From contig NZ_KZ987724.1 of the NCBI RefSeq assembly GCF_003614185.1, positions 2,924,171-2,988,170 on the forward strand: 64,000 nucleotides of DNA, written 5' to 3'. The first letter of the stretch is position 1; the number at the start of each line of letters is the position of its first letter. Positions 14,824 to 56,519 of this stretch are shown one piece after another. This stretch comes from Paenibacillus aceti. Lineage in GTDB: Bacteria > Bacillota > Bacilli > Paenibacillales > Paenibacillaceae. A model generated the notes under the pieces. The model did no database searches and was not told the DNA's origin. It was given only the letters and a program-made list of their open reading frames with translations. The translations under genes were made by a program, and so were the position numbers.

Positions 14824-14898
14824 TTGTCTGGAGGCCAGGTATATTCAATCCGCTTCAGGGAAATCTGGAAAAAGACGCTCAGCAAGCAAAAAATATTG

Positions 14899-14927: not shown

Positions 14928-14973
14928 ATTAAGGATGCCATAAGAACGTTTAATTATAGAGGAGTGACCCTGC

Positions 14974-41045: not shown

Positions 41046-41050
41046 GCCGA

Positions 41051-41100
41051 AAAACCCTTGAATCCGCCAGTATCTTCCTGGTAGATTCAAGGGTTCTTTA
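41051..41100. terminator. Bidirectional terminator between importer and biosynthetic operon
   Basis: ACCCTTGAATC / GATTCAAGGGTT stem with A- and T-runs on both flanks, between convergent genes. Confidence 0.88.
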
Positions 41101-42357
41101 TTACCCTAGCCAGCTTACATCCTGAAGAGAACCGTCAGGAGCGAGCCATATCTCTTTAGGTAAGGTGTGAGACAGGAAATAAAGATTGCCACAACTCAGC
41201 CCATAGGCCCCGGAATTAGGGAAAATAAGAATATCCCCCCGATCCAACGCTTCCGGCAGCTGCACCCCGCTCTGGACAACATCCGTAGGTGTGCATAGTT
41301 TGCCTACCACATTGGTAGGCACATGCCCCTCATGAGCACCGCTGACCTCCTCCCTAATCGTATCCTTCTTGTCCTGCAGAATATAACGGATCGGAAGATG
41401 AGCTTTGAAGCTTCTGCCCATGACCGTACTGAACGCCCGATGGTGGGTGCCCCCGTCGATAATGGCGAATCTTTTGCCATGAGAATGCTTGACGTAAAGC
41501 ACCTGACTAATATAGCAGCCCATTCTGGCAGTAATGAACCGCCCCGATTCCACAAAAATATGAGATAAATTCAAATCTTCATTTTTGCGCAGCTCTTCCG
41601 CTACGATGCGGCCAAATTCCATGATTGGAAAGGGCTCATCCCCAATGAAATGCGGAACTCCGAATCCCCCGCCCAATCCGACTGTGGAGAGATGCAGATC
41701 GAACTGGCGATTGATTTTACGCACCCAATCGAACATTCTCGGCACACTTTCCCGGTAATAATCCAGGTGGAAATTCTGGGTTCCCTGATACGTATGCAGG
41801 CCGATAAAATGAAGCTGCGGCTTCATCAGCAAAGTGCGGATAGCATCCTCCAGCTGATCCTCGTCGATTCCAAATTGAGAAGGGATGCCCACCGAAGCCA
41901 TACGGGAGCCTGCACGGGTGGTCTTCAGATTGACTCGGAGGGTAACAGGTACCGTTGCGCCAAGCTGTTGCGCTTCCTCTTGAATCACTTGCAGTTCCTG
42001 CACCGATTCGGCGTTAATGCAGAATATGCCCCCTTCGATACATGCACGTATCTCCTCGCGGCTCTTGCCCGGGCCAGTAAACACAATTTCCTCAGCGGGT
42101 ACACCGATAGAAACTGCCCGCCGATATTCCCCGATAGAAGCCACCTCGATCGGAGAGTCCAGTTGATGGATCGTACTGCAAAGATAGGGATTGGGATTGG
42201 CTTTCATCGAGTAATAGAGCCTTACTGCCTGGGGCAGAGCCTCCCGGATCGAGGCATAATTGGCTACCAGCCTGGATTCGTCATATAAAAATAATGGAGA
42301 ACCGAAACGCTCGATCGCACTTACAATCGTTTGGGCTTCATGAACCGCTACTTGCAT
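41101..42357 (-). CDS. PLP-dependent decarboxylase (LysA/BtrK fold type III)
   Basis: 418 residues of the ornithine/DAP decarboxylase family. PLP lysine K52 lies in YYSMKANPNPYL. Seen further on: HTYQGTQNF near 195, GLGGGFGVPHF near 225, ESGRFI near 270, the active-site Cys in GKLCTPTDVV (where LysA has a Cys-Glu loop), and YGLSCGNLYF near the end. The Glu of the LysA Cys-Glu pair is Thr here, so meso-DAP is an unlikely substrate. Relatives include BtrK, which decarboxylates an ACP-bound glutamyl unit, and siderophore decarboxylases. The ACP and ATP-grasp context favours such a role. Last gene of the operon. Confidence 0.8.
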   Translation of the reverse strand: MQVAVHEAQTIVSAIERFGSPLFLYDESRLVANYASIREALPQAVRLYYSMKANPNPYLCSTIHQLDSPIEVASIGEYRRAVSIGVPAEEIVFTGPGKSREEIRACIEGGIFCINAESVQELQVIQEEAQQLGATVPVTLRVNLKTTRAGSRMASVGIPSQFGIDEDQLEDAIRTLLMKPQLHFIGLHTYQGTQNFHLDYYRESVPRMFDWVRKINRQFDLHLSTVGLGGGFGVPHFIGDEPFPIMEFGRIVAEELRKNEDLNLSHIFVESGRFITARMGCYISQVLYVKHSHGKRFAIIDGGTHHRAFSTVMGRSFKAHLPIRYILQDKKDTIREEVSGAHEGHVPTNVVGKLCTPTDVVQSGVQLPEALDRGDILIFPNSGAYGLSCGNLYFLSHTLPKEIWLAPDGSLQDVSWLG

Positions 42358-42361
42358 ACAC

Positions 42362-43639
42362 TCACCTCTTCTCCACCAGCTTTTTGGAGTCCATCATCCC
42401 CTGCATATATTCGATTAAATTCAGCAGTTGCTGTTTCTCCCTCGCCCAGCACAATACGAATACGCGATAAACATATATTTGCTGCTTCGGATCAAGCACT
42501 TCATGAAAGCCATAGATCAGCGCTCCTCTTTGACCCGCTAAATCTAGCTCTTCAAACTGCTGCTCAAGCGAGCTAAAGGGAATGCGCTCAGGCGATTTCA
42601 AATCATAGAACCGGATGGCGATATAAGCGAAACCGTCGCTAATCAACTGATCTCTTATAGCAAGCATATACGTGACCATAGTTAACCTGGCATTAATTTC
42701 AATGACCGGAATCAGCCTGCCCTGCTTATCAATGATGGAATCTACACCGGCGAAGCCCTGGTAACCCTGCTCTAATAGAATGCGGCCAAGCTGCTCCAGC
42801 TCGCTCTTGTAAGCTTCCATGATCTGCTCCGGGACAGCCGGATTCAAGTCACTTCCTTTATAGACACCTACATCATTAATTTCTTGGCTAGTGATGGCCA
42901 AAATTCTGCATGTCCCGTTCCACAGCAATAGCTGCGCATTCAGATTGTAATCCACCTCATGCCAGCGCTCGATAGAAACCATGAAATCGGCCTTTTCCCT
43001 CTGGCGGGATAAGTAGGCGTTAATAAACTCGAAGTCCTTCGAATCGCGGATATGAAATAAATTTTTGCCGGAAGAGCCATAAGCGGTCTTCAGTACAAAA
43101 CGGCTCGCCTGCGTCCGTTCCTGTAATGCATGAAACTGCGGGGCCAACTGTTCATAATGATGACAAATCACCCCGTCACTGACAGGGATCGAATGCGATT
43201 CGCATAGCATCCTTGTGAAGATTTTATTGTTCAGATCCAAGGCCAAGGTAGGCGGTGGGCCGATCACCGTACTATGATTTTCACGAAAAAAATCAAAATT
43301 ACTGGCATCCAGCAGATAAGGGATAACAGGCCTGTCCCGAAATTTATCGGGATGCTCATAGGGATTGCCGATAAAAAGCTGCGGAAGGCGCACCCCCTGC
43401 CGCTCCAAATAAGCCAGATAGTCCGGGTTCGGCGCTTCCTTGATGATGACCTCATCATGTTCATCGGCTAAATAGACTTGATGCCAATGCATCTGCTCGA
43501 CAATAGCGTCACTGGCTGCGTTCTTAAATTGAGGCAGCCGTACGCCCAATTTGATTTTCTGCTCCCAATTGAGGTTGGAATACCACAGCTTCGACTCTGG
43601 CACATCAAGTAATTTTCCAATAAATAAATCCTTCTTCAT
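42362..43639 (-). CDS. ATP-grasp amino-acid/peptide ligase
   Basis: 425 residues. An N-terminal pre-ATP-grasp region is followed by ATP-grasp elements: FVLKTAYGSSGKNLF near 185 (ATP-lysine and glycine loop), VSIERWHEVDYNLNAQL near 220, and the metal-binding VIEINARLTMVTYM near 305. A C-terminal extension resembles the PGM1/BtrJ type rather than D-Ala ligases. BtrJ loads glutamate onto an ACP; PGM1 makes peptide bonds. Either would suit this operon. Substrate unknown. ATG overlaps the previous stop by 4 bases. Confidence 0.72.
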   Translation of the reverse strand: MKKDLFIGKLLDVPESKLWYSNLNWEQKIKLGVRLPQFKNAASDAIVEQMHWHQVYLADEHDEVIIKEAPNPDYLAYLERQGVRLPQLFIGNPYEHPDKFRDRPVIPYLLDASNFDFFRENHSTVIGPPPTLALDLNNKIFTRMLCESHSIPVSDGVICHHYEQLAPQFHALQERTQASRFVLKTAYGSSGKNLFHIRDSKDFEFINAYLSRQREKADFMVSIERWHEVDYNLNAQLLLWNGTCRILAITSQEINDVGVYKGSDLNPAVPEQIMEAYKSELEQLGRILLEQGYQGFAGVDSIIDKQGRLIPVIEINARLTMVTYMLAIRDQLISDGFAYIAIRFYDLKSPERIPFSSLEQQFEELDLAGQRGALIYGFHEVLDPKQQIYVYRVFVLCWAREKQQLLNLIEYMQGMMDSKKLVEKR

Positions 43640-44496
43640 CCGCTTACCTCAAATGAGGTTCGTCCAGATACGGTACGAATCCAATCCATTTCGGCGCTTA
43701 AATATTGAAAAGGCTGCGGGCCGAACCACTCGATCGAAGCTGTACACTTCATCTCATCCTCATCCAGGCAAGAAATAATGCGGGTGTAATCGACCACCCC
43801 TTCACCTAATGGCACCATTCCATCCCGGGAACCGCTGGGCGAATAGACATTGTCCGGGCTAAACTGGCCGAGCCTCTCCTTACTGCTCACGTTCTTCATA
43901 TGAAAATGAGCGACCCATGGTTTTAAAGCCTGATAAGCTTCCACCGGGTCTGTCCCTCCTTCCCACATATGGAGGAAGTCCAGATTAATCTGCAAGGCCT
44001 TATGATTCACCTCATGGATCAAGCGCAGCGTAGAATCCAGAGTGTCAGCAAGGGTATCCGGATGGGTTTCGATAACGAGCACAAGCCCGCATAGCTCCAT
44101 TAATTCCGCCAGCCTTCCGAGTCGGCTGATACATAACCGCCATTCCCCTTCATTAACCTGACCACTACCCCGATGACCCGCAAAAATCCGGATATACTTT
44201 GTTTCGAACTTTTTGGTCAGCATCAGCCACTCAGCCACTTTTCCTTCCAACACCCCACTTTGCATCTCTTCATCCAATAGATTCACATAATCGCTAATCA
44301 TCGGGATCTGTAAATCTTGGGCTTTCATCTTCGCGATCCAGGGATTAGTCTGCGCTGCGGAGACATCTATAAGTGCTCTGGCATGAACGCCCCATAGCTC
44401 GATTCCAGAAAATCCGGCTTTTCCGGCGAAATCTATCAGATGATCGAAGGAAACCAACTCATGCCGAAATGAAATCGTGCATAAATTATATTTCAC
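43636..44496 (-). CDS. asbF: 3-dehydroshikimate dehydratase, AsbF-like
   Basis: 286-residue TIM-barrel protein of the sugar-phosphate isomerase superfamily. It matches what I recall of Bacillus AsbF along its whole length: MKYNLCTISFRHELVSF at the start, GFSGIELWGVHA, PMISDYVNL, ETHPDTLADTLDSTL, NLDFLHMWEGGTDPV, HFHMKNVSS and ASIEWFG. AsbF converts 3-dehydroshikimate to 3,4-dihydroxybenzoate, the catechol of petrobactin. The GTG at 44496 reproduces the AsbF N-terminus and has AGGA about 10 bases upstream; the GTG at 44505 is too close. Overlaps the previous gene by 11 bases. Confidence 0.85.
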   Translation of the reverse strand: MKYNLCTISFRHELVSFDHLIDFAGKAGFSGIELWGVHARALIDVSAAQTNPWIAKMKAQDLQIPMISDYVNLLDEEMQSGVLEGKVAEWLMLTKKFETKYIRIFAGHRGSGQVNEGEWRLCISRLGRLAELMELCGLVLVIETHPDTLADTLDSTLRLIHEVNHKALQINLDFLHMWEGGTDPVEAYQALKPWVAHFHMKNVSSKERLGQFSPDNVYSPSGSRDGMVPLGEGVVDYTRIISCLDEDEMKCTASIEWFGPQPFQYLSAEMDWIRTVSGRTSFEVSG

Positions 44497-45451
44497 GAAG
44501 TTCACTTCCTATCTGTTCTATTTTGGTAAGGAACTGTATTTCTCTTTGCTTGATCTCCTCTAATTTCTCCAATAGACTTTCGAGTAAATGGGTATCGCCG
44601 TTCTTCTTATATTTAATGAGTAGAAAATTCACGGTCGTCCATAGCTTCACGATGGAATCAATCCATGAATTCCCCTCCTCGATTTGCGACGGGCTCATCA
44701 TATGCATCTCGCGGAAGCTGTTCCAGACAGCGGCTCTCGTTTTAACAATCGAGGAAATCGTAATATTATTTTGAAAGATCCATTGATCTCTGAGTTCTTT
44801 GTTCCAGTTCGCGGACTGCACCAGCTCTTCCGAAAATTTATCAATCGCTTTCCGCCCGAAGTTATGATCGCTTTTCACGTATAATTGCAGATTTTGGCTG
44901 GCGGCATAATGAAAAGCCTCCTTAGGATCAGGCGATACAAAGTCAGAGGACGACGGCTCCAGGGTATGATAGTACATAGAAACGCTGTCCTTCCTATCCG
45001 CACCGGCTTTGCTTAGCTGCGCGCTGGTGATCCGCCCCGTAAAATCAGCGGTAGGATCGGCGACCAGGAACTCATCCTTGTCCTGATCATAACCCTGGAT
45101 CAATATGAAATGGCGGATTCCGTTCCCTTCATGAGTCATTAATTCCCGTGGAAAATAATCCAGATTGGTCGTTTTGCACATGAGCATCGCCATAGAGCCG
45201 CTATCCAGTAGATGAATAAGAGCATCCTTCGTACCTTTCTTCAGCTCCGAACGAATCCCGTAGAAATAATCAAGTCGGTACAAGCGAATCTTTTTGCCTG
45301 ACATAATCAGCTTCGAATCATAGACCAGGCTCCAATAGTTCATCAGAAAATAACGATAGCTCATGCCTTTCATTTGCAAGTACGTCATTAAACAAGAAGC
45401 AGCGCATTCCATGGCGGCAAGCTTAACGACAGTTTGCTTCGGTTGCTTCAC
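44486..45451 (-). CDS. BtrH-fold acyltransferase/cysteine peptidase-like protein
   Basis: 321 residues. The N-terminal ~190 residues have the BtrH/papain-like pattern: Cys at 16 or 20 (MECAASCLMTYL), His in GIRHFILIQGYD near 120, and Asp in FLVADPTADF near 135. BtrH moves an acyl chain from ACP to an amine in butirosin synthesis. The C-terminal ~130 residues are helical with a Glu/Lys-rich coiled-coil end. GTG at 45451 has AGGAGGT 9 bases upstream; the longer frame from 45493 puts that site inside the gene. I infer an ACP-to-amine acyl transfer. Confidence 0.7.
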   Translation of the reverse strand: MKQPKQTVVKLAAMECAASCLMTYLQMKGMSYRYFLMNYWSLVYDSKLIMSGKKIRLYRLDYFYGIRSELKKGTKDALIHLLDSGSMAMLMCKTTNLDYFPRELMTHEGNGIRHFILIQGYDQDKDEFLVADPTADFTGRITSAQLSKAGADRKDSVSMYYHTLEPSSSDFVSPDPKEAFHYAASQNLQLYVKSDHNFGRKAIDKFSEELVQSANWNKELRDQWIFQNNITISSIVKTRAAVWNSFREMHMMSPSQIEEGNSWIDSIVKLWTTVNFLLIKYKKNGDTHLLESLLEKLEEIKQREIQFLTKIEQIGSELREI

Positions 45452-45485
45452 TTCTTTTCCACCTCCTAGTTGCGCATACGCCATA

Positions 45486-46604
45486 TTAGACAAGACTTAT
45501 GAAGGATTGCAGCTTCCCGTTATTCGAAGGGAGAATGCCGTCCTTCCTCTCGATGGTCAGCCTCACTTCCGTCGATAGGCTCTGGCTTAGAAACTTCTCC
45601 AGTTTATTGTGCAGGAGAGGCTCCTCCAATTGCTCTGCAACGACTAATAATCGAAAATCGGTATAAGTCTCCTGAATGACCTGAAATTGTCGGATACGGT
45701 TATGCTCGGCCAACTCATAGAAGAACTTGTCCAGGTAACGGAATATGGAAGAAGGAATTTGACCGTTCGGCAGCTTGATCTGTTCGTTCCGGACCGGGAA
45801 CAGTTCCAGCAGCAAAGCTCCTGAAGGATCGCGGAATATACGGCCGATATCTCCTGTCCGATATCTGATAAAGGGGATGCTCCGCATCACGAAGGAAGTC
45901 ACGACCACTTCTCCGTACTCTCCCTCCTGAACTGCTCTGAAAGTGCCCGGCTCCAATATTTCCAAATATACGGATTGCTCATCCACCTCCAGTTGGCCGT
46001 TTCGGTTGGAGAAGGCGATGGCCCATAGCTCTTCCAGCCCGTAATAATCAACGAACGGAACCTGGAACACCTGTTCAATTTCTTTCTTCTGAAAAGCATG
46101 GACAGGCTCGCCCCAATTCTGAATGAAGAGCAGTGAGTCCGGCACCTGCACCCCTTGATCCGAAATATATTGCGCCAAGGACAGCAGCGCTGAGGCTCTT
46201 CCCTGGATCATGTGATAGCGGTTCTTCATCAGCTTGGATACGTAATGACCCAAATGATGCCCTTCTGTCAAGCTGCGATTGCTTAATAGGAGCATCTGGT
46301 GGTTGGCGGGCAGTCCCCATTTTTTCCTCTGGCGGTACAGGGCCATTGACAATTGCAGTCTTTCTTCCGCGGTTTTGATGCAGCGAAAGGGGATTCCCGT
46401 CGTTCCCGAAGTAAAGGTTTCGTAGATTTTCCCTGTCACTGGCCGTTCAAACTGCTCCCGTTGCTCGTTGATCATTCTCTTGTCCACGACAGGCAGTTCA
46501 TGCAAATGAGCCACCTTCCCGAACGGCCGGTAAAAAGGATACTCCTGCAAGCGATCCAGAACGAACCGCTGCAAGCGTTGTTCGACTTCGTAAGAATTAT
46601 TCAT
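45486..46604 (-). CDS. PaaK/CapK-like adenylate-forming enzyme
   Basis: 372 residues, shorter than phenylacetate-CoA ligase (about 430) but with its hallmarks: TFTSGTTGIPF near 65 (phosphate loop), DYYGLEELWAIAF near 185, and IPFIRYRTGDIGRIF near 245. A reduced C-terminal domain with NGKLQSFI at the end follows. Such enzymes activate aryl or acyl acids as adenylates, often for transfer to an ACP. The ATG overlaps the stop of the ACP gene by 4 bases, implying the pair works together. Acid substrate unknown. Confidence 0.78.
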   Translation of the reverse strand: MNNSYEVEQRLQRFVLDRLQEYPFYRPFGKVAHLHELPVVDKRMINEQREQFERPVTGKIYETFTSGTTGIPFRCIKTAEERLQLSMALYRQRKKWGLPANHQMLLLSNRSLTEGHHLGHYVSKLMKNRYHMIQGRASALLSLAQYISDQGVQVPDSLLFIQNWGEPVHAFQKKEIEQVFQVPFVDYYGLEELWAIAFSNRNGQLEVDEQSVYLEILEPGTFRAVQEGEYGEVVVTSFVMRSIPFIRYRTGDIGRIFRDPSGALLLELFPVRNEQIKLPNGQIPSSIFRYLDKFFYELAEHNRIRQFQVIQETYTDFRLLVVAEQLEEPLLHNKLEKFLSQSLSTEVRLTIERKDGILPSNNGKLQSFISLV

Positions 46605-46861
46605 TCGCCCGTCTTCCCCAAGACAAAATGAATCACGGATTGAACGGACCGGAACCGTTCGGGCTGTAAATCATCGACTTCCATTTCAAAGCCGAAATGC
46701 TCCTCCAAGGTGGAGAGAAGCTCCAGAAATTGAATCGAGTCGACCGCTAGATCATTGGCCAGTGATTGATATTTAGCAATCTCTGTCGCCTCTCGCTTGC
46801 ATAATTGGGCTATGATATGAATTACCTCTTCTTCAACCTGGTGAAGTGAATGTTGCGGCAT
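46601..46861 (-). CDS. Acyl carrier protein 1
   Basis: 86 residues. Four-helix carrier protein with the phosphopantetheine serine S42 in LAVDSIQFLELLSTLEE. Helix II and III residues (FGFEMEVDDLQPE) are typical. ATG 46861, with AAGGAGT 8 bases upstream, overlaps the ligase gene before it by 29 bases. Flanked by two adenylate-forming enzymes, one or both of which may load it. Confidence 0.88.
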   Translation of the reverse strand: MPQHSLHQVEEEVIHIIAQLCKREATEIAKYQSLANDLAVDSIQFLELLSTLEEHFGFEMEVDDLQPERFRSVQSVIHFVLGKTGE

Positions 46862-48413
46862 CTTCCCACTCCTTTGCCATAGTTCTTAGAGCCAGTCTGT
46901 TTATTTTGCCAACGATCGTTCGCGGCAGCTGCTGTTCATCGACAATGATCCATTTCCTGGGCCGTTGCACAGGTTGGAGATGTAGCTTGCTGAATTCAGC
47001 TAATTCACTGATCCTGCCGTTTCCATCGCTCAAGACGACAAAGGCCACCATCCTCTCTCCCCAGATATCATCGGCCACGCCGGTAACGGCTACCTCTCGA
47101 ACAAAAGGAAGGCCAAGGAGGATGCGTTCGATCGTCTCAGGATAGACGGTATGTCCCCCCACATTTAAGGCGTTATCCATCCGCCCAGTGATATAAATAA
47201 ATCCGTCTTGATCGATATAGCCGATATCCGAGGTATACAATCCTTCGGGCTTAAGCTGTTCTGAGGTCAATCGGTCATTATTGTAATAACCGAGCATGAC
47301 ATTGGGGCCAGTGACGACAATTTCCCCATGCTCTCCCGGTTCCGCCACAACGCCGCTCCGATACACGGATACCTGCACCCCCTTCACCGGAATGCCGACG
47401 GAGCCCGGTCGCACCTTTAACTGCTGGGCAGGCAGATAAGTCACCCTGGGCGAAGCCTCGGTCAGCCCGTAAGACGGCATCAACTCAACCGAGGGCATTC
47501 GCGAGCTTAAGTGGAGCAAGCTGTCACTAGGCATCGGGCCACCCACAATCGTCATCTTCCTCAAGCTCGCGACATCCTTCTCCCCCCAACGCTCCGTCTT
47601 GACCAAGGGCAGAATGGCGGAAGGGACTGTACACATAAAAGTAGTGCCATATTCTCGCACGAACCGGAGCATCTCGAACGGATGCATAAAAGCATCGGTC
47701 AATTGCAGATCACAACCCGCAAATAGCGCCGTTAGCCATTCCCCGGTAATAGAGGAACAGTAGCCTAGCGACTTGAAGGCAAGCAACTTATCGCCCCTGT
47801 TAAGCCAGACGTAATCCTGGATCGATTCGACATTCGAGATAATGTTATGGTCGCTCAGCATAATGCCTTTAGGCCATCCCGTAGAGCCTGAGGACATAAA
47901 GATCACTGCGGTCTCTGTCGGAGGCGTATACTCCCGTTCAGCGAATTTCCCGCCACCATGTCCGCTACCATGTGATGCGTCAGATCCATCCGAGCCTGCT
48001 AACAACCGTCCGGTATCCAGATCAATCCAATAGGGCGAGCGCTGCACATCCATTAGTGATAGAGAAGAATGAAACATGCGGAACTTAGCTGTCGACACCA
48101 CGACCATATCCGCCTCCAGCCTGCGGACCGCTCCCGAAATATCTTCGACGGCTGAAAAAGAATGCATCGGAACCGGAATCCCACCAGCGAGCACGACAGC
48201 CAGAAAGGAGCGCAAGCCGTCAAGACTCTGTTCCATCCATACCACCGCAATAAAGCGTTCCCTGAGCTTCAGTGTCCGCCAGGATGCAGACAGCTCCAGA
48301 GCGGATTGATACAGCTCGCTATAGGCTATGAATCGCTTATTCTTCTTCTTCACTTCATAAATGCCACGATCTCCCCGGGAAAACTGACGGATGAACGTAC
48401 CGAGATCATTCAT
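46833..48413 (-). CDS. AMP-dependent acyl/amino-acid ligase
   Basis: 526 residues of the ANL superfamily. Seen: phosphate loop SSGSTGWPKGIML near 170, PSYGLTEASPR near 315, the TSDIGYIDQDGFIYITGR hinge near 415, and catalytic Lys in RTIVGKINRL near 505. A Gly/Ser/His-rich insert (DGSDASHGSGHGGG) lies before the phosphate loop. Fatty-acyl-AMP ligases and stand-alone adenylation enzymes look similar; the substrate cannot be read from sequence. Overlaps the exporter gene by 8 bases and the ACP gene by 29. Confidence 0.85.
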   Translation of the reverse strand: MNDLGTFIRQFSRGDRGIYEVKKKNKRFIAYSELYQSALELSASWRTLKLRERFIAVVWMEQSLDGLRSFLAVVLAGGIPVPMHSFSAVEDISGAVRRLEADMVVVSTAKFRMFHSSLSLMDVQRSPYWIDLDTGRLLAGSDGSDASHGSGHGGGKFAEREYTPPTETAVIFMSSGSTGWPKGIMLSDHNIISNVESIQDYVWLNRGDKLLAFKSLGYCSSITGEWLTALFAGCDLQLTDAFMHPFEMLRFVREYGTTFMCTVPSAILPLVKTERWGEKDVASLRKMTIVGGPMPSDSLLHLSSRMPSVELMPSYGLTEASPRVTYLPAQQLKVRPGSVGIPVKGVQVSVYRSGVVAEPGEHGEIVVTGPNVMLGYYNNDRLTSEQLKPEGLYTSDIGYIDQDGFIYITGRMDNALNVGGHTVYPETIERILLGLPFVREVAVTGVADDIWGERMVAFVVLSDGNGRISELAEFSKLHLQPVQRPRKWIIVDEQQLPRTIVGKINRLALRTMAKEWEDAATFTSPG

Positions 48414-50211
48414 ACTCTACACCTGCCGCAACGGGAACCTCTTCATGCTGTTCAGCCTCGTCTCCATCCTCCCGATTCATATCGGCGACTAAGGAGGTAT
48501 ATAAGGGACTGCGCTCCAGCAGCTCGGTATGGCTGCCTTGATCCACGATCTTCCCTTTATCCATCACGAAGATCGTATCCGCATAAGCTATTGTGCTAAG
48601 CCGATGAGTAGAAATCAGGATGGTCTTATCCTTCATCACATTCCTCAATTCTCCCATCACTTCATTCTCTGTAATTCGATCCAGAGCGGAGGTCGGCTCA
48701 TCGAGAATTAGGATATCCGGCTTCTTCAGGATCGTCCTAGCAATCGCGAGGCGCTGTCGCTGTCCTCCGGATAATTGAAAGCCTTTATTATCGATCATCG
48801 TATCGATTCCCTCTGGCATCTGATCGAGGACCTCCTGCAAACCTGCGATGCGTGCCGCTTCATGTACTTCCTCTTCCGTAGCCTCCAAATTTCCCAGTTT
48901 AATATTTTCACCGATCGTCCCTTTGAAAATATAAGATTCCTGAAAGACGACACCGATCCGGGAATTCAGCTCTGCTCTTGTCATATTATCCATGTCTCTG
49001 GAGTCAATCTTGATCGTTCCTGACTCTATCGGCATAAAGCCCGCTAACGTTCTGAATAATGTCGTCTTGCCAGAACCGCTTCGCCCGACAAAGGCGACGG
49101 TTTCATTGTGCTTGACGCTGAAGCTGATATCCTTCAAAATATGAGCTCCATCATAGGAGACATTGACTTGCTCTGCATCGACAGCGATATCAGAACCAGC
49201 GTATGGCGAGGCTTCATCCCCTTCCTGACCAAACTGAGCAACCAATGCTTCAAAAGGGGTCTCCAGGAAGGCTTCGATTCTTTGCAGCGCTACCTCAGAT
49301 CTTTGCAATTCAGCGTAAAAATTATTGATCGCTTGCACTGGATTGAGCGCGTTGTGCAAATAGTTAACCGAGGCGACCAGCATCCCGATCGATAAAGATT
49401 CATACAGTACCTGATTGCTGCCGACCCAATAGACAAACACGATCACCAGACTGATCACCAGGCTGCTGGCCTGATAAGACAGCGTCCGATAGAACGTCTC
49501 CTTCGTGCTGGATTTGACCAGACCCGCATACATCTTCTGATTCCGGCCCCTCTCCCATTCCTCCAAGCCGTACACCCGAATTTCCCTGGACCCGTCCAGG
49601 CATTCTAATAAATGCGTTCCGATTTGCTCGTTATGCGTTCGGACATGATCGATGTGGGTCGTCAGCTGTTTCTTGAAGATCCGGGGTAGCCACAATAAGA
49701 CAGGCAAGCCTACCAGGGCGAGCAGCCCTAGCTTCCAATCCATTGTAAAGAGCACGCCGAAGGCAAGTAACATGATGAACAGCTGAGAAATCAGCTCTAC
49801 GAGGACGTGATTCATATAATCTCCCATCGTAGCTGTATCATAGCCCAGCATGGCCAGGAATTTGCCCGCCCCATGTTTCTCAATCTCCGGAATCGGTATT
49901 TTACGGATATGAGAGGTCAGCACCTCGCGGATATCAAGTGTATGCGTAATGCCAAGATAGCGAAAAATTCCGGCACGTATGAGCGAGAAAATGACGGACA
50001 GGCAGGCCAAGCCTATAGAAAGGAAGATGAGAAGCGGAAGCAATTCTGTTTTTTTCTCAATGAGAACTGTATCGATTAAATAAGCGAAGATCAGGGGCTG
50101 TCCCATCAAGGAGCCTAAGTGCAGGAAAGTACATAAATAAGCGACTCCTGTCAGCCTCCAGCGAATCTTCACATATGGCGCCAGACGCAAAAACAATCTA
50201 ATGCTGTGCAT
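48406..50211 (-). CDS. ABC exporter (fused permease-ATPase half transporter)
   Basis: 601 residues: six membrane helices (about 1-310), then an ATPase domain with Walker A GRSGSGKTT near 378, signature LSGGQRQRLAIARTI near 480, Walker B ILILDEPTSALD, and the switch His in STHRLSTIAY. It would act as a homodimer. Of the MsbA/MdlB type, it lacks the N-terminal peptidase domain of bacteriocin exporters. Embedded in the operon with 14- and 8-base overlaps, so it most likely exports the product or confers self-resistance. Confidence 0.92.
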   Translation of the reverse strand: MHSIRLFLRLAPYVKIRWRLTGVAYLCTFLHLGSLMGQPLIFAYLIDTVLIEKKTELLPLLIFLSIGLACLSVIFSLIRAGIFRYLGITHTLDIREVLTSHIRKIPIPEIEKHGAGKFLAMLGYDTATMGDYMNHVLVELISQLFIMLLAFGVLFTMDWKLGLLALVGLPVLLWLPRIFKKQLTTHIDHVRTHNEQIGTHLLECLDGSREIRVYGLEEWERGRNQKMYAGLVKSSTKETFYRTLSYQASSLVISLVIVFVYWVGSNQVLYESLSIGMLVASVNYLHNALNPVQAINNFYAELQRSEVALQRIEAFLETPFEALVAQFGQEGDEASPYAGSDIAVDAEQVNVSYDGAHILKDISFSVKHNETVAFVGRSGSGKTTLFRTLAGFMPIESGTIKIDSRDMDNMTRAELNSRIGVVFQESYIFKGTIGENIKLGNLEATEEEVHEAARIAGLQEVLDQMPEGIDTMIDNKGFQLSGGQRQRLAIARTILKKPDILILDEPTSALDRITENEVMGELRNVMKDKTILISTHRLSTIAYADTIFVMDKGKIVDQGSHTELLERSPLYTSLVADMNREDGDEAEQHEEVPVAAGVEYE

Positions 50212-51541
50212 AAATCATTCCCTCCCCCGCAAAATGGCGGATTAACGGCTTTACCCTGCTCATCCACTCAGCCAATGGCTCAGCGCTTTCCAGCGACAGG
50301 ATCGACAGCGGCGTCTCATGCAGCCAACCTGATGGCTTCAGGCGCTCTATATCGTAAATATGCGGCAATTCCCGCAACGGAGTAGTCGCAACGCTCTCCA
50401 ACGGGAGCTTGTTCTCGATCCGGCCTGATAAAGCTAGATGAGCTTCTACGGTTTGAACAATCTTGGGCATGATCACTCTATAGTCATAAAGAAGAGCGTT
50501 CTTCCGCGCTCCCTCAGACAGTTGCCGCTGCAGCCTGGAGTCGGTCAGAAGCCGAACACAGGCTTGCGCAGCTTTCTCCAGATCTATGCAGGGCTTCTCC
50601 CCGTTCCAGCTGCTATCCACCAATAATCCGTCCTCGTCCGGGGAGACCAGCGCCTGAAATCCGTCCCACTTCGTACATACCACGGGCAAGCCCCATACTT
50701 TCGCTTCCAGTAGATTGAAGCCAAAGGTCTCGCCGGGATCGGTGGAGAAATTCACAAGCAGGCTAGCCGCCGAAAATAACTGATCCTTCGCCTCCCCCGT
50801 CTTTGGCCCAACGAATTCCACAGCTTGATGGAGCTCATACCGATCCATTAGCTCTTCAAGCATCTGCTTATATTCACTTATTTGCTGCTGCGAACCGGTA
50901 AATTCACCGGCAATCGTTAATTTAGCTCCCGGTACCTGCTCGCGAACTCGGAAGAAGCAGGAGAGCAGAGCATCGATATTCTTCACATTCTCAAGCCTGC
51001 TGATCGCTAAGATCCGCTGCTCTGCCGCTTCAGAAGGCGCTGTGTTCCGCATGCCAATACATAGCGGTATTTCGGTAGCAGACTCATACACCGGCGCGAT
51101 ATTGGTCAGCGCTCGCTTACATGAGCGGGTACTAGTTAAAAGGATATCCCTATCCGTCAGGAAGGGAGTGATGCCGATCCATTGCTTCAACCAGAAGGGA
51201 GAAGCGACCGAATGCGCCATGAACAGTATGCTGAGATCCAATTGCTTATAGTTCCTCGCCATCAATAGAAAGGGAATCATCATCGGAAGATTCATATAGA
51301 GGACTTGAACATCGTACTTGGCGCATACTCGTCTTAACCCTTCCCCCAGCTCATCCAATCCATCGGGAAATCGCCTCATCCATTTATTAATGGAGCCGCC
51401 GAACAAGCGGATAAAGACAAAGGGAGGAATTCTGACCAGATCCGTATATTCCCCGAGGTAGGCGGTCCACTGATCATCGATCACCCGCTCATTCACCTTC
51501 GCTGAGTGTCCGCCTACGTATCCGATTCGTAAAGGACGCAT
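50198..51541 (-). CDS. GT4-family glycosyltransferase
   Basis: 447 residues with a GT-B fold. LRIGYVGGHSAKVNERV starts the N-terminal domain. The nucleotide-sugar-binding C-terminal domain has ILAISRLENVKNIDALL near 200, and the E-x7-E motif in GETFGFNLLEAKVWGLPVV near 300, typical of retaining GT4 enzymes. A C-terminal tail of ~70 residues extends past the usual domain. The ATG at 51541 is one base after the preceding stop; the 50-residue upstream extension is an out-of-frame read of that gene. Acceptor and sugar unknown. Confidence 0.86.
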   Translation of the reverse strand: MRPLRIGYVGGHSAKVNERVIDDQWTAYLGEYTDLVRIPPFVFIRLFGGSINKWMRRFPDGLDELGEGLRRVCAKYDVQVLYMNLPMMIPFLLMARNYKQLDLSILFMAHSVASPFWLKQWIGITPFLTDRDILLTSTRSCKRALTNIAPVYESATEIPLCIGMRNTAPSEAAEQRILAISRLENVKNIDALLSCFFRVREQVPGAKLTIAGEFTGSQQQISEYKQMLEELMDRYELHQAVEFVGPKTGEAKDQLFSAASLLVNFSTDPGETFGFNLLEAKVWGLPVVCTKWDGFQALVSPDEDGLLVDSSWNGEKPCIDLEKAAQACVRLLTDSRLQRQLSEGARKNALLYDYRVIMPKIVQTVEAHLALSGRIENKLPLESVATTPLRELPHIYDIERLKPSGWLHETPLSILSLESAEPLAEWMSRVKPLIRHFAGEGMIYAQH

Positions 51542-51542
51542 C

Positions 51543-52472
51543 CTACTGAGCCTCCTTCCACTGCCGCTGTACAGACCGCAGGCATGCTTTGATTTCTTCC
51601 TCCTGCTGCTCCAATTGCACCGCTTTATCCCAGAGCTGCTCCAGCTTGGCTGCCCCCATCGACGCTTTAATCGCCATATATCCAAAGGCATTCCAGCCTT
51701 TGACTAACGACTCTACCTTACTGGCAAAGTCATTGTCAGGGGATGTTGAGGCTACAAGATAGTCGTACAGCAGTTGATAGCTAAGCTTCCTCTTGGCGAG
51801 GATGCCAATCTGGGAAAAGGTGCGCACCAGTCGTTTTTTGGGAAATTCGGCTGCGTGATCGGTAAATTTGCGGATCGTCTCTTTTACTTCCTGTACCAGG
51901 CTGTTATGCCCCTGCACAAGCTCTTGCTCTAAATAGCTGGATACGGAATGGATGTCGGGCCTGGAGAGGTTCGTGGTATCCAATAGAAATCCTTCGCCCA
52001 AGGGGTTCTCACAGAAAGCGGATGAGATCTCCTCTTCATGCAATCTCCCTTCCCATGAGAAATAGGGGTCTACGACGGACCAATGCTGGTCCTGTTCTTC
52101 AAGAATGATCACGAAATGCGGTTGATGAATCTTGCGATAGCACCTCGTCTCATACTTCAGATAGAATAAATCCAACTGTACGAGTAGGTACTGATTCGGC
52201 TGAATTCTCATAATCATACGCCGTAGTCTCTCGAAATTCTGCTGCTTGTTCAGCCTGTGATCGTACCAGGCATGGAGCTGCTGCCGATAGAATTGTTCGA
52301 ACATCGTCCTGTAAACTTCATTCGTAATGGAGGCGGAGAAATAAGAGATACGCCCATCCTCCTCCACCTCGAAAGGGGTATTCCACGCTCCGATGAACAG
52401 CGGACGATAATCTGTCCCCGGATGCAGGGCATAAGCCAGACAATCTAGCAGACAATGAATTTGCCGTAACAT
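51543..52472 (-). CDS. asbE: AsbE-like catechol amide synthase (DUF6005/BtrH fold)
   Basis: 309 residues resembling petrobactin AsbE by recall: Cys at 7 or 11 (IHCLLDCLAYAL), GAWNTPF, HQPHFVIILEE (His), VVDPYFSWEG (Asp), SAFCENPLGEGFLLD and FSQIGILAKRKLSY. AsbE transfers 3,4-dihydroxybenzoate from AsbD to spermidine. Here it probably caps an amine; which amine is unknown. The ATG directly abuts the TGA of ACP 2, so that carrier may be its partner. Confidence 0.75.
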   Translation of the reverse strand: MLRQIHCLLDCLAYALHPGTDYRPLFIGAWNTPFEVEEDGRISYFSASITNEVYRTMFEQFYRQQLHAWYDHRLNKQQNFERLRRMIMRIQPNQYLLVQLDLFYLKYETRCYRKIHQPHFVIILEEQDQHWSVVDPYFSWEGRLHEEEISSAFCENPLGEGFLLDTTNLSRPDIHSVSSYLEQELVQGHNSLVQEVKETIRKFTDHAAEFPKKRLVRTFSQIGILAKRKLSYQLLYDYLVASTSPDNDFASKVESLVKGWNAFGYMAIKASMGAAKLEQLWDKAVQLEQQEEEIKACLRSVQRQWKEAQ

Positions 52473-52745
52473 TCAGACCCCTGAGCTTACTTTGTCATTG
52501 ATGATTTGGCCGATCTTGCCGATCGTTGCGAAGTTCTCCTCAAGCAATTCATCATCTTCATAGAAAACCTGATATTCCTGTTCAATGTGAACCATGAGAT
52601 TGACCAGCATCACCGAATCCATGCCGATCTCCGATAGTTGTGTATCGGCAGTCAGTTCCTCCAACAGCTCCGGACGCTCCAGAAGGCTGGAAATTGCTTT
52701 TTTCAAAAAAAGATGAATATGCTGTTCGCTCTGTACTGTCTCCAT
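52473..52745 (-). CDS. Acyl carrier protein 2
   Basis: 90 residues. Phosphopantetheine serine S44 lies in EIGMDSVMLVNLMVHIEQ. The acidic helix II/III region follows (YEDDELLEEN). ATG with GGAGG upstream. Placed between the aminotransferase and the AsbE-like gene. Confidence 0.87.
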   Translation of the reverse strand: METVQSEQHIHLFLKKAISSLLERPELLEELTADTQLSEIGMDSVMLVNLMVHIEQEYQVFYEDDELLEENFATIGKIGQIINDKVSSGV

Positions 52746-52760
52746 TAGAATCCTCCATCA

Positions 52761-53882
52761 TTAAACTTGTATTGTACCTAGCACGGCTCTGAGTTCTTCT
52801 GCCATAAACTTCACATCTTCCTCAGTAATCGAAATATTCATAGGCAATGACACGATCTCCCGGGCATAACGCTCGGAAACAGGGAAAGCTCCTTGCTCAT
52901 AAGGCAGATGGGCGAACGCCTCTGTTAAATGCACGGGACTTGGGTAATGGATCGCGGTTAGCACGCCCTTCTTCTGCAGATGCTTCCGGACTTTATCCCT
53001 TATAGCCGCGTCAACCCTGACAATATATAAATGGAATACATGGCTCTCATCCTGCCGATGCTTCGGCAGAACAATTCCGCCTAGATGCTGCAAATAATGC
53101 TCGTACAAGGAGGCTGCGTGGCGCCGCTTGACTGACCATTCATCCAAATGCTTCAGTTTGAGCTCGAGGGCAATCGCCTGCAACGGGTCCAGTCGGCTGT
53201 TGAAGCCGGGGAATTCATGACGATACTTCGCTTCTCCCCCGTGATTGCGTATTCTCCTTAACCGGGAAGCCAGTTCGGGGTCAGAGGTTGTAATCCCTCC
53301 GCCGTCTCCGAGAGCGCCGAGATTTTTATCGGGATAAAAGCTGAAGCAGCCCGCAATCCCCAGCGTGCCCGCCATTTGACCATGCAATCTGGCTCCCGCC
53401 GCCTGCGCGCTATCTTCCACAATAGCGATATTCCGCGCTTCAGCCCAGACTGTTAATTCCGACAGATCCACCATCTGGCCATATAAATGGACGGGGAGGA
53501 TCGCCTTTGTCCTTGGGGTCACGGCCTGCTTGGCCCGCTCCAAATCGATCAGATACGTATCGGGATCACAGTCTACCAAGACCGGTGTTGCCCCCGTATG
53601 ATGAATAGCTTCGACCGTCGCAATAAAGGTATTGGCCGCGGTGATCACTTCATCTCCCGGTCCGATCCCAAGCGCTTTCAACGTTAAAAACAAGGCATCT
53701 GTTCCGTTACCGACACCGATCGAATAAGCACTGCCCGTGTACTGTGCAAATGCTGACTCGAAGGAGGTCACCGGTGTTCCGCCAACAAAGACACCTCTGC
53801 GAGCTACTTCCTCTACCCCTTCAAGCCATTCGTCTCGAATCACTTGAAATTCAACCTGTGGACTTGAAAACAATATCCCCAT
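52761..53882 (-). CDS. DegT/DnrJ/EryC1/StrS sugar aminotransferase
   Basis: 373 residues. PLP lysine K186 lies in CFSFYPDKNLGALGDGG. Other motifs: GNGTDALFLTLKALG near 60, LPVHLYGQ near 129, EDSAQAAGA near 156, NHGGEAKYRH and GFNSRLDPLQAIAL. It uses glutamate or glutamine to aminate a keto-sugar (or keto-cyclitol). The preceding gene is an NAD(P)-dependent sugar oxidoreductase, which could supply the ketone; together they resemble pairs that build 3-amino sugars. ATG at 53882 with GGGGAGG upstream; the longer frame lacks a ribosome site. Confidence 0.9.
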   Translation of the reverse strand: MGILFSSPQVEFQVIRDEWLEGVEEVARRGVFVGGTPVTSFESAFAQYTGSAYSIGVGNGTDALFLTLKALGIGPGDEVITAANTFIATVEAIHHTGATPVLVDCDPDTYLIDLERAKQAVTPRTKAILPVHLYGQMVDLSELTVWAEARNIAIVEDSAQAAGARLHGQMAGTLGIAGCFSFYPDKNLGALGDGGGITTSDPELASRLRRIRNHGGEAKYRHEFPGFNSRLDPLQAIALELKLKHLDEWSVKRRHAASLYEHYLQHLGGIVLPKHRQDESHVFHLYIVRVDAAIRDKVRKHLQKKGVLTAIHYPSPVHLTEAFAHLPYEQGAFPVSERYAREIVSLPMNISITEEDVKFMAEELRAVLGTIQV

Positions 53883-53898
53883 GAGATTTCCTCCCCTG

Positions 53899-54891
53899 TT
53901 ATGATCGATGCGACTGACGGTTCCTCGATATTTCCTCCAATATGCGCATACTATCCACTGCTTCCGGCAATGTAACAGCCAACGGACCATCCCTTAGAAG
54001 ATGATCGCAGACCGATTGATAGATCGGCAGAGCCGACTCTCGCGAGACAGGCTCCAGCACCAGCGGTTCAGGCTGCTTTCCTTTCTCCAGCACATAAGCT
54101 TCACTGGGAGATACAACGATCACCGTCCCTTTATCCCCTCCCACTACCCACATAGGGGCAGCTGCCAGAGAGCCGAAATTCACTTCCATATTCAAGATGA
54201 TATTGTTGTCCAGCACTATATTGGCGCGAGCATAATCATCTACCTGATTCTGATCCCAGTCATAGCAATGCATGAAGGAGCTAATTTCGCGGACAGTTCC
54301 CAATTTCAGCTGCAGCAGTTGGTCGATCAAATGCACTCCCCAATCAAAAAGAGCGCCTCCGCCATATTCGGTAGTATTTCGCCATCCTTCATGGAAGGAC
54401 TTGACCCCAAAGGTCGCCCCGGAACCGAACATGTGATGACGGCGCTCCACGAACAAAATGTCCCCGATTGTCCCTTCATCCAGCACTCGCTTGACCAGCT
54501 TGAAATCTGGATCATAACGCCGATTTTGAAATACCGTCACGAACCTTCCAACCTGTTCCGAGGTCTTCAATAGCGATGAGGCTTCCTCGTAGGTTACGGT
54601 GACCGGCTTCTCGATGATGACATGCTTGCCAGAGTGCAGCGCCTGATTAGCAATCGCATAATGTGAGTTGGGAGGTGTCGAGACCAGGATGATATCGGCA
54701 TCGCTTGCCAGCAAGTCATCCAGGCTGTCCAAGGTATGAAATCCTCGTTTGGCCGCCAAGGCCTGCCGTTGTTCGGTTATATCATGCACTCCGCTCACTT
54801 CTATTTCAGGGAGCCGCTTAATTAAAGGCAAATGAACCAATTCTACAATTCTGCCGAAGCCGACGATTCCAAGCTTGATTTTACGCTCCAT
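53899..54891 (-). CDS. Gfo/Idh/MocA oxidoreductase
   Basis: 330 residues. N-terminal Rossmann fold with GIVGFGRIVELVHLP, and the family motif EKPVT (GKHVIIEKPVTVTYEEA near 92) carrying the conserved Lys. The C-terminal domain has YGGGALFDWGVHLIDQLL near 175, with the catalytic His. It oxidises a sugar or cyclitol hydroxyl to a ketone. The ATG at 54891 is 6 bases from AGGAG; the ATG at 54894 is only 3. Followed 16 bases later by the aminotransferase. Confidence 0.9.
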   Translation of the reverse strand: MERKIKLGIVGFGRIVELVHLPLIKRLPEIEVSGVHDITEQRQALAAKRGFHTLDSLDDLLASDADIILVSTPPNSHYAIANQALHSGKHVIIEKPVTVTYEEASSLLKTSEQVGRFVTVFQNRRYDPDFKLVKRVLDEGTIGDILFVERRHHMFGSGATFGVKSFHEGWRNTTEYGGGALFDWGVHLIDQLLQLKLGTVREISSFMHCYDWDQNQVDDYARANIVLDNNIILNMEVNFGSLAAAPMWVVGGDKGTVIVVSPSEAYVLEKGKQPEPLVLEPVSRESALPIYQSVCDHLLRDGPLAVTLPEAVDSMRILEEISRNRQSHRS

Positions 54892-54900
54892 CATGTTCTC

Positions 54901-55161
54901 CTAAGCCGCATTCGCTTGCAGTTCTTCGATGAAGGTAACCAATGAGCCGAGCGTCTGAAATACCGCTGGATCTACGTCCTCTTCAGGGACATCTACCTGG
55001 AATTCCTCTTCGATATATACAACCAATTGAAGCACCATAATCGAATCGATGTTCAGATCCTCGTAAATGCGATCAGCCTCATGTATTTCCGCTGGAAGGG
55101 AATGCTCCAGGCTATCCGTAATCAGCTCTTTTAACTTATCCATAATCTCCGTTCTACTCAT
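54901..55161 (-). CDS. asbD: AsbD-like aryl carrier protein (ACP 3)
   Basis: 86 residues. Phosphopantetheine serine S40 lies in LNIDSIMVLQLVVYIEEE. The later VPEEDVDPAVFQTLGS and EELQ closely parallel the AsbD carrier of Bacillus petrobactin clusters as I recall it. It would carry 3,4-dihydroxybenzoate loaded by the ligase encoded just upstream. ATG with AAAAGGAGAG upstream. Confidence 0.85.
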   Translation of the reverse strand: MSRTEIMDKLKELITDSLEHSLPAEIHEADRIYEDLNIDSIMVLQLVVYIEEEFQVDVPEEDVDPAVFQTLGSLVTFIEELQANAA

Positions 55162-55182
55162 TAGGTCTTCTCTCCTTTTGGA

Positions 55183-56421
55183 TTAATAGTTCTCGCTTAA
55201 CCATTTTCTGCTGATCTTGCCTGATGCTGCTCTAGGTATCTCTTCTACAATGTCAAAAGCGCTGGGGATTTTGTACTGGGGAAGATGCTCTATGCACCAT
55301 TGCTTTGCCAGCTCTGACGACAGGCTAGAGGTGCCCACGATCATCGCCTTCACCGCTTCCCCCCAAACTTTATGTTTAGTCCTGTAGACGACTACCTCTT
55401 GGATTTCTTCCATCCCGAGCAGTACCTGCTCGACTTCATAAGGAATGACCTTCTGCCCGCTGACATTAATCAGATCATCGATTCTTCCCTCAACCTGAAT
55501 TCTCCCTGCGGAATTTATCCAGCCCAGATCGCGGGTAAACACAGGACTTCCGTCCATCATCACAATGATTTCATCCGGTGACTCCGCATGACCATCGACG
55601 GTTACTTCAAGATGCTGCAATGGCGTGCCCACATCTGCGTGGGTAGCCGGATCGAAGCCTAGCGAGATACAGCCGAGCTCAGAGCATCCGTACTGCTGAA
55701 TGACCAGCTCAGAGCGAGCTTTCACGGTATCGAATACTTTTCCGGTAAAAGGGGCGCCCGAACTGATGATTTTATGGAATGCCCTTTCATTTCTCATGAC
55801 GGACAGCAAAATATGAAACAGATAAGGCACACCATAAACGATAGATTCTCGTGTTGATTGAATAACATGGGCTGCGAATTTAGGGTTCTTGTCGGTCACA
55901 ATCACCGGCTGCGCCTTTCGCTCCAAGGCTGCAAGTACACCTGTAATCAGACCAAAGGAATGTGAGACGGGAACGAGAATAATTGGCACTTCTGAGGAAT
56001 TGGATGATAGTCTAGCATTATAATTGGCAATCTCTCTTTCTACTTGCTGCCAGGATCGCCTTATAATCTTGGGGGTGCCAGTTGTTCCGGAACTGAATTG
56101 AAGCAATGAGGGAGTATCGATCACGGTGCTGTCGGAGAGGAATTGGACTGGTTCTGACAAACTCCCGTATAACAGTGCAGTGCTGCCAGCTTCCTGAGCC
56201 AGCTTCAAGGCTTGTCCTCTTGGCATTTCGCCGTTGATTAGAAGAACGGAGCCGTGACAGAAAATCACTTGCCTGAGTACAGACATAATTTCTGGAGGAT
56301 CCTTCAAGCATATGGCTGTGATCCGGTGCATCATTTGCTGATGCGGAATCATATCGGCAACATGCCTCCTGATCCGTTCCAGATCATCGACGGCGAAAAA
56401 TTTCGAGTTTACAAATAACAT
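55183..56421 (-). CDS. asbC: AsbC-like 3,4-dihydroxybenzoate--AMP/ACP ligase
   Basis: 412 residues, the AsbC length, shorter than typical ANL enzymes. It shares by recall the start MLFVN, CLKDPPEI, LLQFSSGTTGTPKIIRR (phosphate loop), PVSHSFGLI, VTDKNPKFA, IVYGVPYLFHIL, QQYGCSELGCIS, GRIDDLINVSGQKV and ASGKISRK (catalytic Lys). AsbC adenylates 3,4-dihydroxybenzoate and loads AsbD, which is the next gene here. First gene of the operon, with ATG after AAAGGAAAA and a sigma-A promoter upstream. Confidence 0.86.
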   Translation of the reverse strand: MLFVNSKFFAVDDLERIRRHVADMIPHQQMMHRITAICLKDPPEIMSVLRQVIFCHGSVLLINGEMPRGQALKLAQEAGSTALLYGSLSEPVQFLSDSTVIDTPSLLQFSSGTTGTPKIIRRSWQQVEREIANYNARLSSNSSEVPIILVPVSHSFGLITGVLAALERKAQPVIVTDKNPKFAAHVIQSTRESIVYGVPYLFHILLSVMRNERAFHKIISSGAPFTGKVFDTVKARSELVIQQYGCSELGCISLGFDPATHADVGTPLQHLEVTVDGHAESPDEIIVMMDGSPVFTRDLGWINSAGRIQVEGRIDDLINVSGQKVIPYEVEQVLLGMEEIQEVVVYRTKHKVWGEAVKAMIVGTSSLSSELAKQWCIEHLPQYKIPSAFDIVEEIPRAASGKISRKWLSENY

Positions 56422-56490: not shown

Positions 56491-56519
56491 ATCTTATTTA
56501 TCCAGACAGGAGCTGTCAA
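56491..56519 (-). promoter_or_regulatory. Sigma-A promoter of the biosynthetic operon
   Basis: Minus strand: perfect -35 TTGACA (56514-56519), a 17-base spacer, and TAAGAT (56491-56496). The leader to the asbC-like start is about 70 bases and AT-rich. I looked for a 7-1-7 Fur box (TGATAAT.ATTATCA) and did not find a convincing one. Confidence 0.6.

Follow-up and report, generated by a model that had tools for sequence, protein, structure and literature searches.

In petrobactin, dihydroxybenzoyl is attached to spermidine. In the butirosin pathway, the decarboxylase BtrK acts on a carrier-bound iso-glutamyl group (PMC7756342, excerpt), and in closthioamide biosynthesis an ATP-grasp enzyme loads β-alanine on one carrier, a ligase loads hydroxybenzoate on another and CtaG joins the two (PMC6772006, excerpt). 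Here we analysed a 64,000-nucleotide stretch of the Paenibacillus aceti genome (assembly GCF_003614185.1, contig NZ_KZ987724.1, positions 2,924,171 to 2,988,170; hereafter the window), in which fifteen genes, g01 to g15 (Table 1), form an operon with counterparts of genes from all three pathways. Judged by its gene families, this conserved set probably builds and exports a small molecule without giant peptide-making enzymes.

We propose that the operon encodes a thiotemplated assembly on stand-alone carriers, independent of nonribosomal peptide synthetases (NRPSs), and consider the full pathway that follows fairly probable. In this pathway, g13 would make 3,4-dihydroxybenzoate, which g01 would load on the first acyl carrier protein (ACP1, g02). 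The ATP-grasp enzyme g14 would load an amino acid on ACP2 (g05), where g15 would decarboxylate it, as BtrJ and BtrK do on BtrI; by analogy the default would be glutamate giving γ-aminobutyrate (GABA). Transfer of the dihydroxybenzoyl group from ACP1 onto the ACP2-bound amine would fall to g06, in the manner of CtaG in closthioamide. Another acid would be loaded on ACP3 (g10) by g09, with or without g11. Finally, g12 would release a chain by transfer to an amine; the simplest candidate is the amino group of a sugar that g03 and g04 would make and g07 attach. The product would be exported by g08. We infer all substrates, the order of steps, the assignment of the transacylases, the roles of g11 and the GT4 glycosyltransferase g07, and the product, plausibly a sugar-bearing 3,4-dihydroxybenzoyl amide that is exported.

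The fifteen-gene neighbourhood is conserved beyond a single genome. Among 41 genomes of its own genus, only the window's genome matched g14 at an expectation value (E) of 1e-20. In a sample of the family, some g14 homologue was found in 54 of 296 genomes and one with at least 45% identity in 11, the window's own included. All 11 were mapped (G162 by way of P. tritici); of the 53 other genomes with a homologue, flanks were fetched for 20 and then for G182 and G221. An alignment of g11 matched 25 of 393 genomes of the order. The operon is present in every one of the 19 genomes that matched at E 1e-118 or better (the window's genome, 17 mapped genomes and G838, taken as P. solani). The six weaker matches were not counted; three were inspected and belong to other clusters (L084 to L086), and the others are G088, G282 and G723. 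In a phylum-wide sample the same alignment matched one of 398 genomes, the window's own, and thus added no distant carrier. A scan of named genomes gave seven loci, in Paenibacillus solani, P. piscarius, P. kobensis, P. silagei, P. tritici, Longirhabdus pacifica and Fictibacillus norfolkensis; P. solani has the complete fifteen-gene set in the same order at 51–76% identity.

Presence was counted over 22 loci (the window and 21 others) with bit-score limits that we set. Genes g01, g02, g07, g09, g10, g11 and g12 were present in all 22, as was g05 if a fused copy in P. piscarius is counted. The others were g13 (21 loci), g06 and g08 (20 each), g15 (17) and g14 (16); the contig of L081 ends after g11, so that its lack of g14 and g15 carries no weight. 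Gene order was kept throughout except in L081, where g12–g13 stand ahead of g09–g11. We take the gene set to be more than chance, since diverged relatives repeat both the genes and their order, and those presumed catalytic positions that were checked do not vary. The original prediction had described one hybrid operon; its modules were confirmed, and what emerged is a family of related operons instead. The sugar oxidoreductase and aminotransferase pair (g03, g04) was likewise borne out by family searches and proved optional, the two genes occurring always together in 8 of 22 loci. Their carriers are scattered over several branches of a six-protein tree, and the g03/g04 tree retains the pairs window and P. 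solani, L047 and L048, and L080 and L082. These trees, taken without formal reconciliation, would fit an old module that was sometimes lost.

The catechol arm has counterparts of AsbC, AsbD, AsbE and AsbF. DUF6005, the family of g06, was present in 31 of 398 genomes of the class, and 15 of these loci were fetched. In all 15, a ligase gene is followed by genes for a carrier, DUF6005 and a TIM barrel, whose best matches are g01, g02, g06 and g13, respectively. In each, the ligase preceding DUF6005 was 35–45% identical to g01, the carrier was closer to g02 than to g05 or g10, and the protein at the AsbE position matched g06 best (25–30% identity). The fetched stretches were short and were compared for these four genes. 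A search of plasmids with g06 gave 71 records; in the two that were inspected, from Phaeobacter inhibens and Azospirillum lipoferum, two IucA/IucC genes precede the same run of ligase, carrier, DUF6005 and TIM barrel. Because this run recurs in the DUF6005 loci and in the named plasmid operons, we place g06 at the AsbE position by gene order. The DUF6005 protein of Phaeobacter bears an N-terminal carrier domain, which fits what hand-over between carriers would predict.

Conserved residues point in the same direction. The A10 lysine of g01 and the carrier serine of g02 are conserved in 22 of 22 loci, and the presumed catalytic C7, H119 and D135 of g06 are invariant in 20 of 20. By Pfam match and residues, g06 would belong to the papain-like transacylases; its profile found CtaG as the top, weak match in the PDB (E 0.029). 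In g13, R102, E142, H144, D172, H175, H198, K200 and E253 (3dx5 numbering) are invariant in 21 of 21 loci; we take these eight positions to be the AsbF active-site residues. The claim of petrobactin-type catechol genes thus holds for the AsbC, D, E and F counterparts. It does not extend to the defining synthetases AsbA and AsbB (IucA/IucC family), for which PF04183 had no match in the whole genome (the control was positive in Escherichia coli and Haloferax).

The amino-acid arm was assigned by comparison with other ATP-grasp clusters. An ACP adjoins homologues of g14 (~30% identity) in 6 of 13 mapped loci, and g05 was the best window match of all six (38.9–46.7 bits versus at most 18.1). For five of the six its lead over the second-best window ACP exceeded 20 bits, and the sixth matched no other. 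Since these ACPs match g05 best, g14 and, by context, g15 would pair with ACP2; that the carrier is charged with an amino acid is read from this gene pairing. The g14-family ATP-grasp profile found only distant ATP-grasp chains in the PDB (best E 8e-6), and a plasmid search with g14 gave just two weak matches. The presumed pyridoxal phosphate (PLP) lysine of g15 is invariant in 17 of 17 copies. A genome of the window's family (G081) contains a locus, L035, with dehydroquinate-synthase-like, aminotransferase, luciferase-like, BtrH_N, ACP, ATP-grasp and BtrK genes. Its BtrK matched that of the PDB with 570 bits, and by gene content L035 is a butirosin-type cluster. The ATP-grasp enzyme of L035 is 31% identical to g14 and its BtrK 37% identical to g15, and its ACP matches g05 best. 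Its BtrH matched g06 weakly (E 0.04) and did not match g12.

In several relatives the loading genes are exchanged. L077 (G104) and L078 (G137) have no g14, and an extra AMP ligase adjoins their BtrK homologue (44–45% identity). L080 (G234) and L082 (G156) have neither g14 nor g15; there, g13 and a divergent gene are followed by an alternative cassette (L080 2272–4811; L082 15417–17991) of an ACP2-like carrier, a further protein and a class-II aminoacyl-tRNA synthetase (aaRS)-like protein. The further protein of L082 has a weak BtrH_N match below the cut-off, the aaRS-like gene of L080 is split across two frames, and the divergent gene encodes a C-terminus with a motif that presumably resembles an AraC-type regulator. 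The ACP of all three aaRS-like cassettes compared matched g05 best, by a wide margin in L080 and L082 and with 31.0 versus 22.8 bits in L086. Carrier-charging relatives of seryl-tRNA synthetase have been reported (PMC2922099, excerpt). L076 also has no g14 or g15, and no replacement adjoins its operon. The exchanges fit a shared role of these cassettes in charging ACP2 with an amino acid, without amounting to proof. In P. piscarius (L043 3612–4127), ACP1 and ACP2 form one two-domain protein of 171 amino acids with both serines kept, an arrangement consistent with direct hand-over.

The assignments are more varied for the remaining genes. The closest solved relatives of g04 are 7b0d, a scyllo-inositol-type transaminase, and QdtB (3frk), while the PDB match of g03 is an uncharacterised oxidoreductase. 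The structural model of g11 was poor (mean predicted local distance difference test score, pLDDT, 64.5) and its top Foldseek matches were PaaK1; we accept a PaaK-type fold mainly on the sequence profile. For g12, a profile search of the PDB returned only five designed coiled-coil chains. Its kinship with CtaG, CcbD and AziU3 is suggested by the predicted fold, which matches all three, and a presumed Cys-His-Asp triad, assigned from the alignment and not from coordinates, is conserved across loci. A profile comparison of g12 with g06 (E 1.2e-4, probability 55) is only suggestive of kinship between them. Family searches agreed with every module that had been named for the operon, namely AsbC, D, E and F, BtrK, BtrH, ATP-grasp, GFO, DegT, GT4, two adenylating enzymes, three carriers and an exporter.

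Taken together, the analysis shows gene content, order, conservation, family membership, the predicted fold of g12 and conserved presumed catalytic residues and, by comparison, the pairing of ACP1 and ACP2 with their enzymes. Several observations weigh against the carrier-bound pathway proposed above. Neither g01 nor g02 attained the NCBIfam equivalog cut-off of its model: g01 scored 447.6 bits over residues 1–407 with the AsbC-type model NF006167 (cut-off 513) and g02 86.0 bits with the AsbD model (cut-off 100). The Longirhabdus locus L047 has g14 and, at the locus, no g13 or g15, so that some members of the family may do without dihydroxybenzoate or the decarboxylation. There is no g06 in L076 and L081, and L076 has no g14 or g15 at the locus either. 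The pairing of ACP3 is inconsistent, as the ACPs of three loci with g11-like proteins best match g05, g10 and g02, respectively. Analogy is the basis for GABA, for the sugar and for the third acid. Good scores with exosortase-A-associated models were also obtained for g15 and g09.

The last of these points leads to a different reading, in which the GT4 enzyme, the AMP ligase and the decarboxylase form a cell-surface system, the product is an envelope-bound decoration (a glycan or glycolipid) instead of a diffusible compound, and g08 acts as flippase for a lipid-linked unit. The MsbA-like score of g08 (364 bits) and the GT4 gene in 22 of 22 loci are in line with it, as are the scores of g09 (217 bits) and g15 (275 bits) with the exosortase-A-associated ligase and decarboxylase models TIGR03098 and TIGR03099. 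These scores, however, are far from the cut-offs (592 and 478 bits, respectively), the top PDB match of g15 is BtrK, and the fifteen genes show no polymerase, anchor or exosortase; we consider this reading improbable. The BtrK match also bears on the idea that the substrate of g15 is a free amino acid, whose decarboxylation would give a diamine as acceptor instead of the spermidine of petrobactin, and that g14 is a peptide ligase acting off the carrier. Proteins of the ornithine, diaminopimelate and arginine decarboxylase fold include g15, and petrobactin offers a precedent for dihydroxybenzoyl on a polyamine. Yet the PDB chain closest to g15 acts on a carrier-bound substrate, and g05-like ACPs adjoin g14 homologues as described above, which leaves free-diamine formation with little likelihood.

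Our first choice had been a catecholate siderophore, secreted to scavenge iron, in which a new amine scaffold replaces citrate-spermidine as the partner of the dihydroxybenzoyl arm. The intact AsbC-D-E-F arm and the exporter within the operon agree with this, and DUF6005 has been linked to siderophore contexts (PMC10318531, excerpt). We scanned the upstream regions of 17 of the 22 operons with a Fur-box consensus (L048, L076, L079, L081 and L083 were left out, and the stretches of L042 and L047 were short). A Fur-box-like site was found upstream of L078, whereas the other 16 regions, the window's included, had none above mononucleotide shuffles. The fifteen genes include no iron-uptake gene. 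With a single such site in 17 regions and no NRPS-independent siderophore synthetase in the genome, the siderophore was demoted to a rival that we regard as unlikely, though less so than the other two.

If the carrier-bound pathway is correct, the catechol arm of petrobactin, the amino-acid arm of butirosin and the carrier-to-carrier transfer of closthioamide would belong to one toolbox that meets in this operon, and carrier recognition by CtaG, BtrH and AsbE enzymes would become directly testable. The operon family supplies natural pairs of carriers and transferases, an ACP1-ACP2 fusion and three apparently interchangeable amino-acid loaders. Its genes predict a conserved metabolite family in Paenibacillus, Longirhabdus and Fictibacillus. 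More tentatively, these may be an undescribed natural-product family of Bacilli: 3,4-dihydroxybenzoyl-aminoacyl glycosides built on three carriers and diversified combinatorially by swapping amino-acid-loading (ATP-grasp, AMP ligase or aaRS-like) and aminosugar cassettes, the rest being kept.

All fifteen open reading frames (ORFs) lie on the minus strand from 56421 to 41101, as originally predicted. Two starts were revised: g04 from 53990 to 53882, downstream of a ribosome-binding site (ggggagga) and in agreement with an ortholog length of ~373 amino acids, and g07 from 51691 to 51541, downstream of aaggagg and in agreement with ortholog lengths. The tight packing was confirmed with these starts, the spacings from g01 onwards being gaps of 21, 6, 16, 15, 0 and 1 bases, overlaps of 14, 8, 29, 4, 8, 20 and 4 bases and a gap of 4 bases. 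A promoter-like site lies 69 bases before the start of g01; since the scanned region held 17 such sites versus 19.9 in shuffles, this site alone is poor support for a promoter. The single terminator that had been predicted is present as a strong hairpin followed by T after g15 (41098–41050; none of 200 shuffles was equally good), which the consensus terminator scan did not report. It is not exclusive to the operon, for it also serves the convergent gene at 39219–41045. Operon-free relatives have a similar element at this place (L105 by BLAST, L106 by eye), and the terminator may therefore predate the operon.

Table 1. Genes and other features at the operon locus (window coordinates)
Feature	Position	Strand	Basis
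g01, AsbC-like aryl-acid adenylating ligase, presumed ACP1 loader	55183..56421	-	PF00501/PF13193
g02, ACP1, AsbD-like carrier	54901..55161	-	NF005798 (AsbD) 86.0 bits, cut-off 100
g03, GFO/IDH/MocA sugar dehydrogenase, optional module	53899..54894	-	PF01408, PF22725
g04, DegT sugar aminotransferase, optional module	52761..53882	-	PF01041, 380 bits
g05, ACP2, BtrI-type aminoacyl carrier	52473..52745	-	Best match of ACPs abutting ATP-grasp homologues
g06, AsbE/DUF6005 papain-like acyltransferase	51543..52472	-	PF19468 215.5 bits, cut-off 25
g07, GT4 glycosyltransferase	50198..51541	-	PF00534 81.8 bits; 22/22 loci
g08, ABC exporter, MsbA type	48406..50211	-	PF00005, PF00664; 20/22 loci
g09, full-length AMP-forming ligase, presumed ACP3 loader	46833..48413	-	PF00501 184.1 bits; 22/22 loci
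g10, ACP3	46601..46861	-	PF00550 42.0 bits; serine in 22/22
g11, short PaaK-type adenylating enzyme	45486..46604	-	Profile versus PDB, best 9s3l (ClxA) E 4e-14; 22/22 loci
g12, BtrH/CtaG-type papain-like transacylase	44486..45493	-	Predicted fold and residues
g13, AsbF-like 3-dehydroshikimate dehydratase	43636..44505	-	PDB AsbF 3dx5, E 2.5e-72
g14, ATP-grasp ligase, BtrJ/CtaD-like, presumed amino-acid loader of ACP2	42362..43639	-	PF02655 28.7 bits, cut-off 23.2
g15, BtrK-like PLP decarboxylase	41101..42357	-	PDB BtrK 2j66, E 9e-80, best match
Promoter-like TTGACA-17-TAAGAT	56491..56519	-	Consensus scan, 10/12 matches
Terminator, hairpin then T	41050..41098	.	Fold -29.7 kcal/mol, z -6.2; common to convergent gene
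Remnant of 322-amino-acid ORF, outside operon	56574..56751	-	~180 bases; ORF full length in two relatives

The close relatives G011, G031 and G032 have both flanks at ~80–85% DNA identity and no operon, and two of the three have three other ORFs at the site. The ORF remnant beside the operon is what survives of one of these three ORFs and matched their DNA at 78–80% (L105 3584–3764; L107 for 56603–56756). Since the flanks are kept without the operon in three relatives and the window has this remnant, either the operon was gained at the site, replacing local genes, or it was lost from the relatives. Its GC content is not distinct from the surroundings.

Some relatives have additional genes at their loci. 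A conserved protein of ~350 amino acids (g16; 11 of 22 loci) is encoded after g15 in L022–L026, L028, L046, L073, L074 and L083 and before g01 in L075. The two copies tested had no Pfam match, profile comparison linked the protein to neither g12 nor g06, and the window's genome yielded no copy; a relative with 42% identity lies in the different cluster L085. The proteins directly before g01 in L048 and L076 have BtrH_N matches below the cut-off and no match to the g16 alignment. Downstream of g15 in P. solani (L042 15512–18256) are a carbamoyltransferase gene (at most 18 bases after g15), a zinc dehydrogenase gene and others, possibly for extra tailoring. In L076, the variant without g14 and g15, g13 is followed by an erythromycin-esterase-family gene (14668–15930). 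The other clusters L084, L085 and L086 (L084 and L086 from the window's genus) combine an AMP ligase, a carrier and a g11-like protein with thymidylate-synthase-like, arginine-deiminase-like, sulfotransferase or aaRS-like genes.

A literature search of titles and abstract openings agreed with the earlier statement that no described pathway has this set: there was none among the matches listed, although one may be described elsewhere. Celesticetin and azinomycin are the pathways of CcbD and AziU3, respectively, and both include NRPS parts; g12 is just ~11–15% identical to these two proteins. Petrobactin (asbABCDEF) shares the AsbC, D, E and F counterparts with the window operon. It differs in the AsbA/AsbB-type synthetases that define it, and in the window the arm is interrupted by other genes and coupled to a second carrier system. 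From butirosin (btrI, J, K and H), the ACP, ATP-grasp enzyme and PLP decarboxylase match g05, g14 and g15 best, and its papain-like transferase family is also present. The fifteen genes include neither a 2-deoxy-scyllo-inosose synthase nor a BtrO luciferase-type oxygenase, whereas L035 has candidates for both. The closest working logic is that of closthioamide (CtaD ATP-grasp enzyme, CtaE and CtaH carriers, CtaI ligase, CtaG transacylase and CtaJ), which the original prediction had omitted and which we add as a correction. Like closthioamide biosynthesis, the window operon has stand-alone carriers, an ATP-grasp enzyme and a papain-like transacylase, with no condensation domain among the Pfam matches of the fifteen genes. 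In contrast, the thioamide synthetase CtaC (AANH family) is absent from their listed Pfam and NCBIfam matches, and the window operon adds a BtrK-type decarboxylase, a third carrier, a GT4 enzyme and aminosugar genes. Its dihydroxybenzoate would come from an AsbF-type enzyme, whereas the hydroxybenzoate of closthioamide comes from chorismate.

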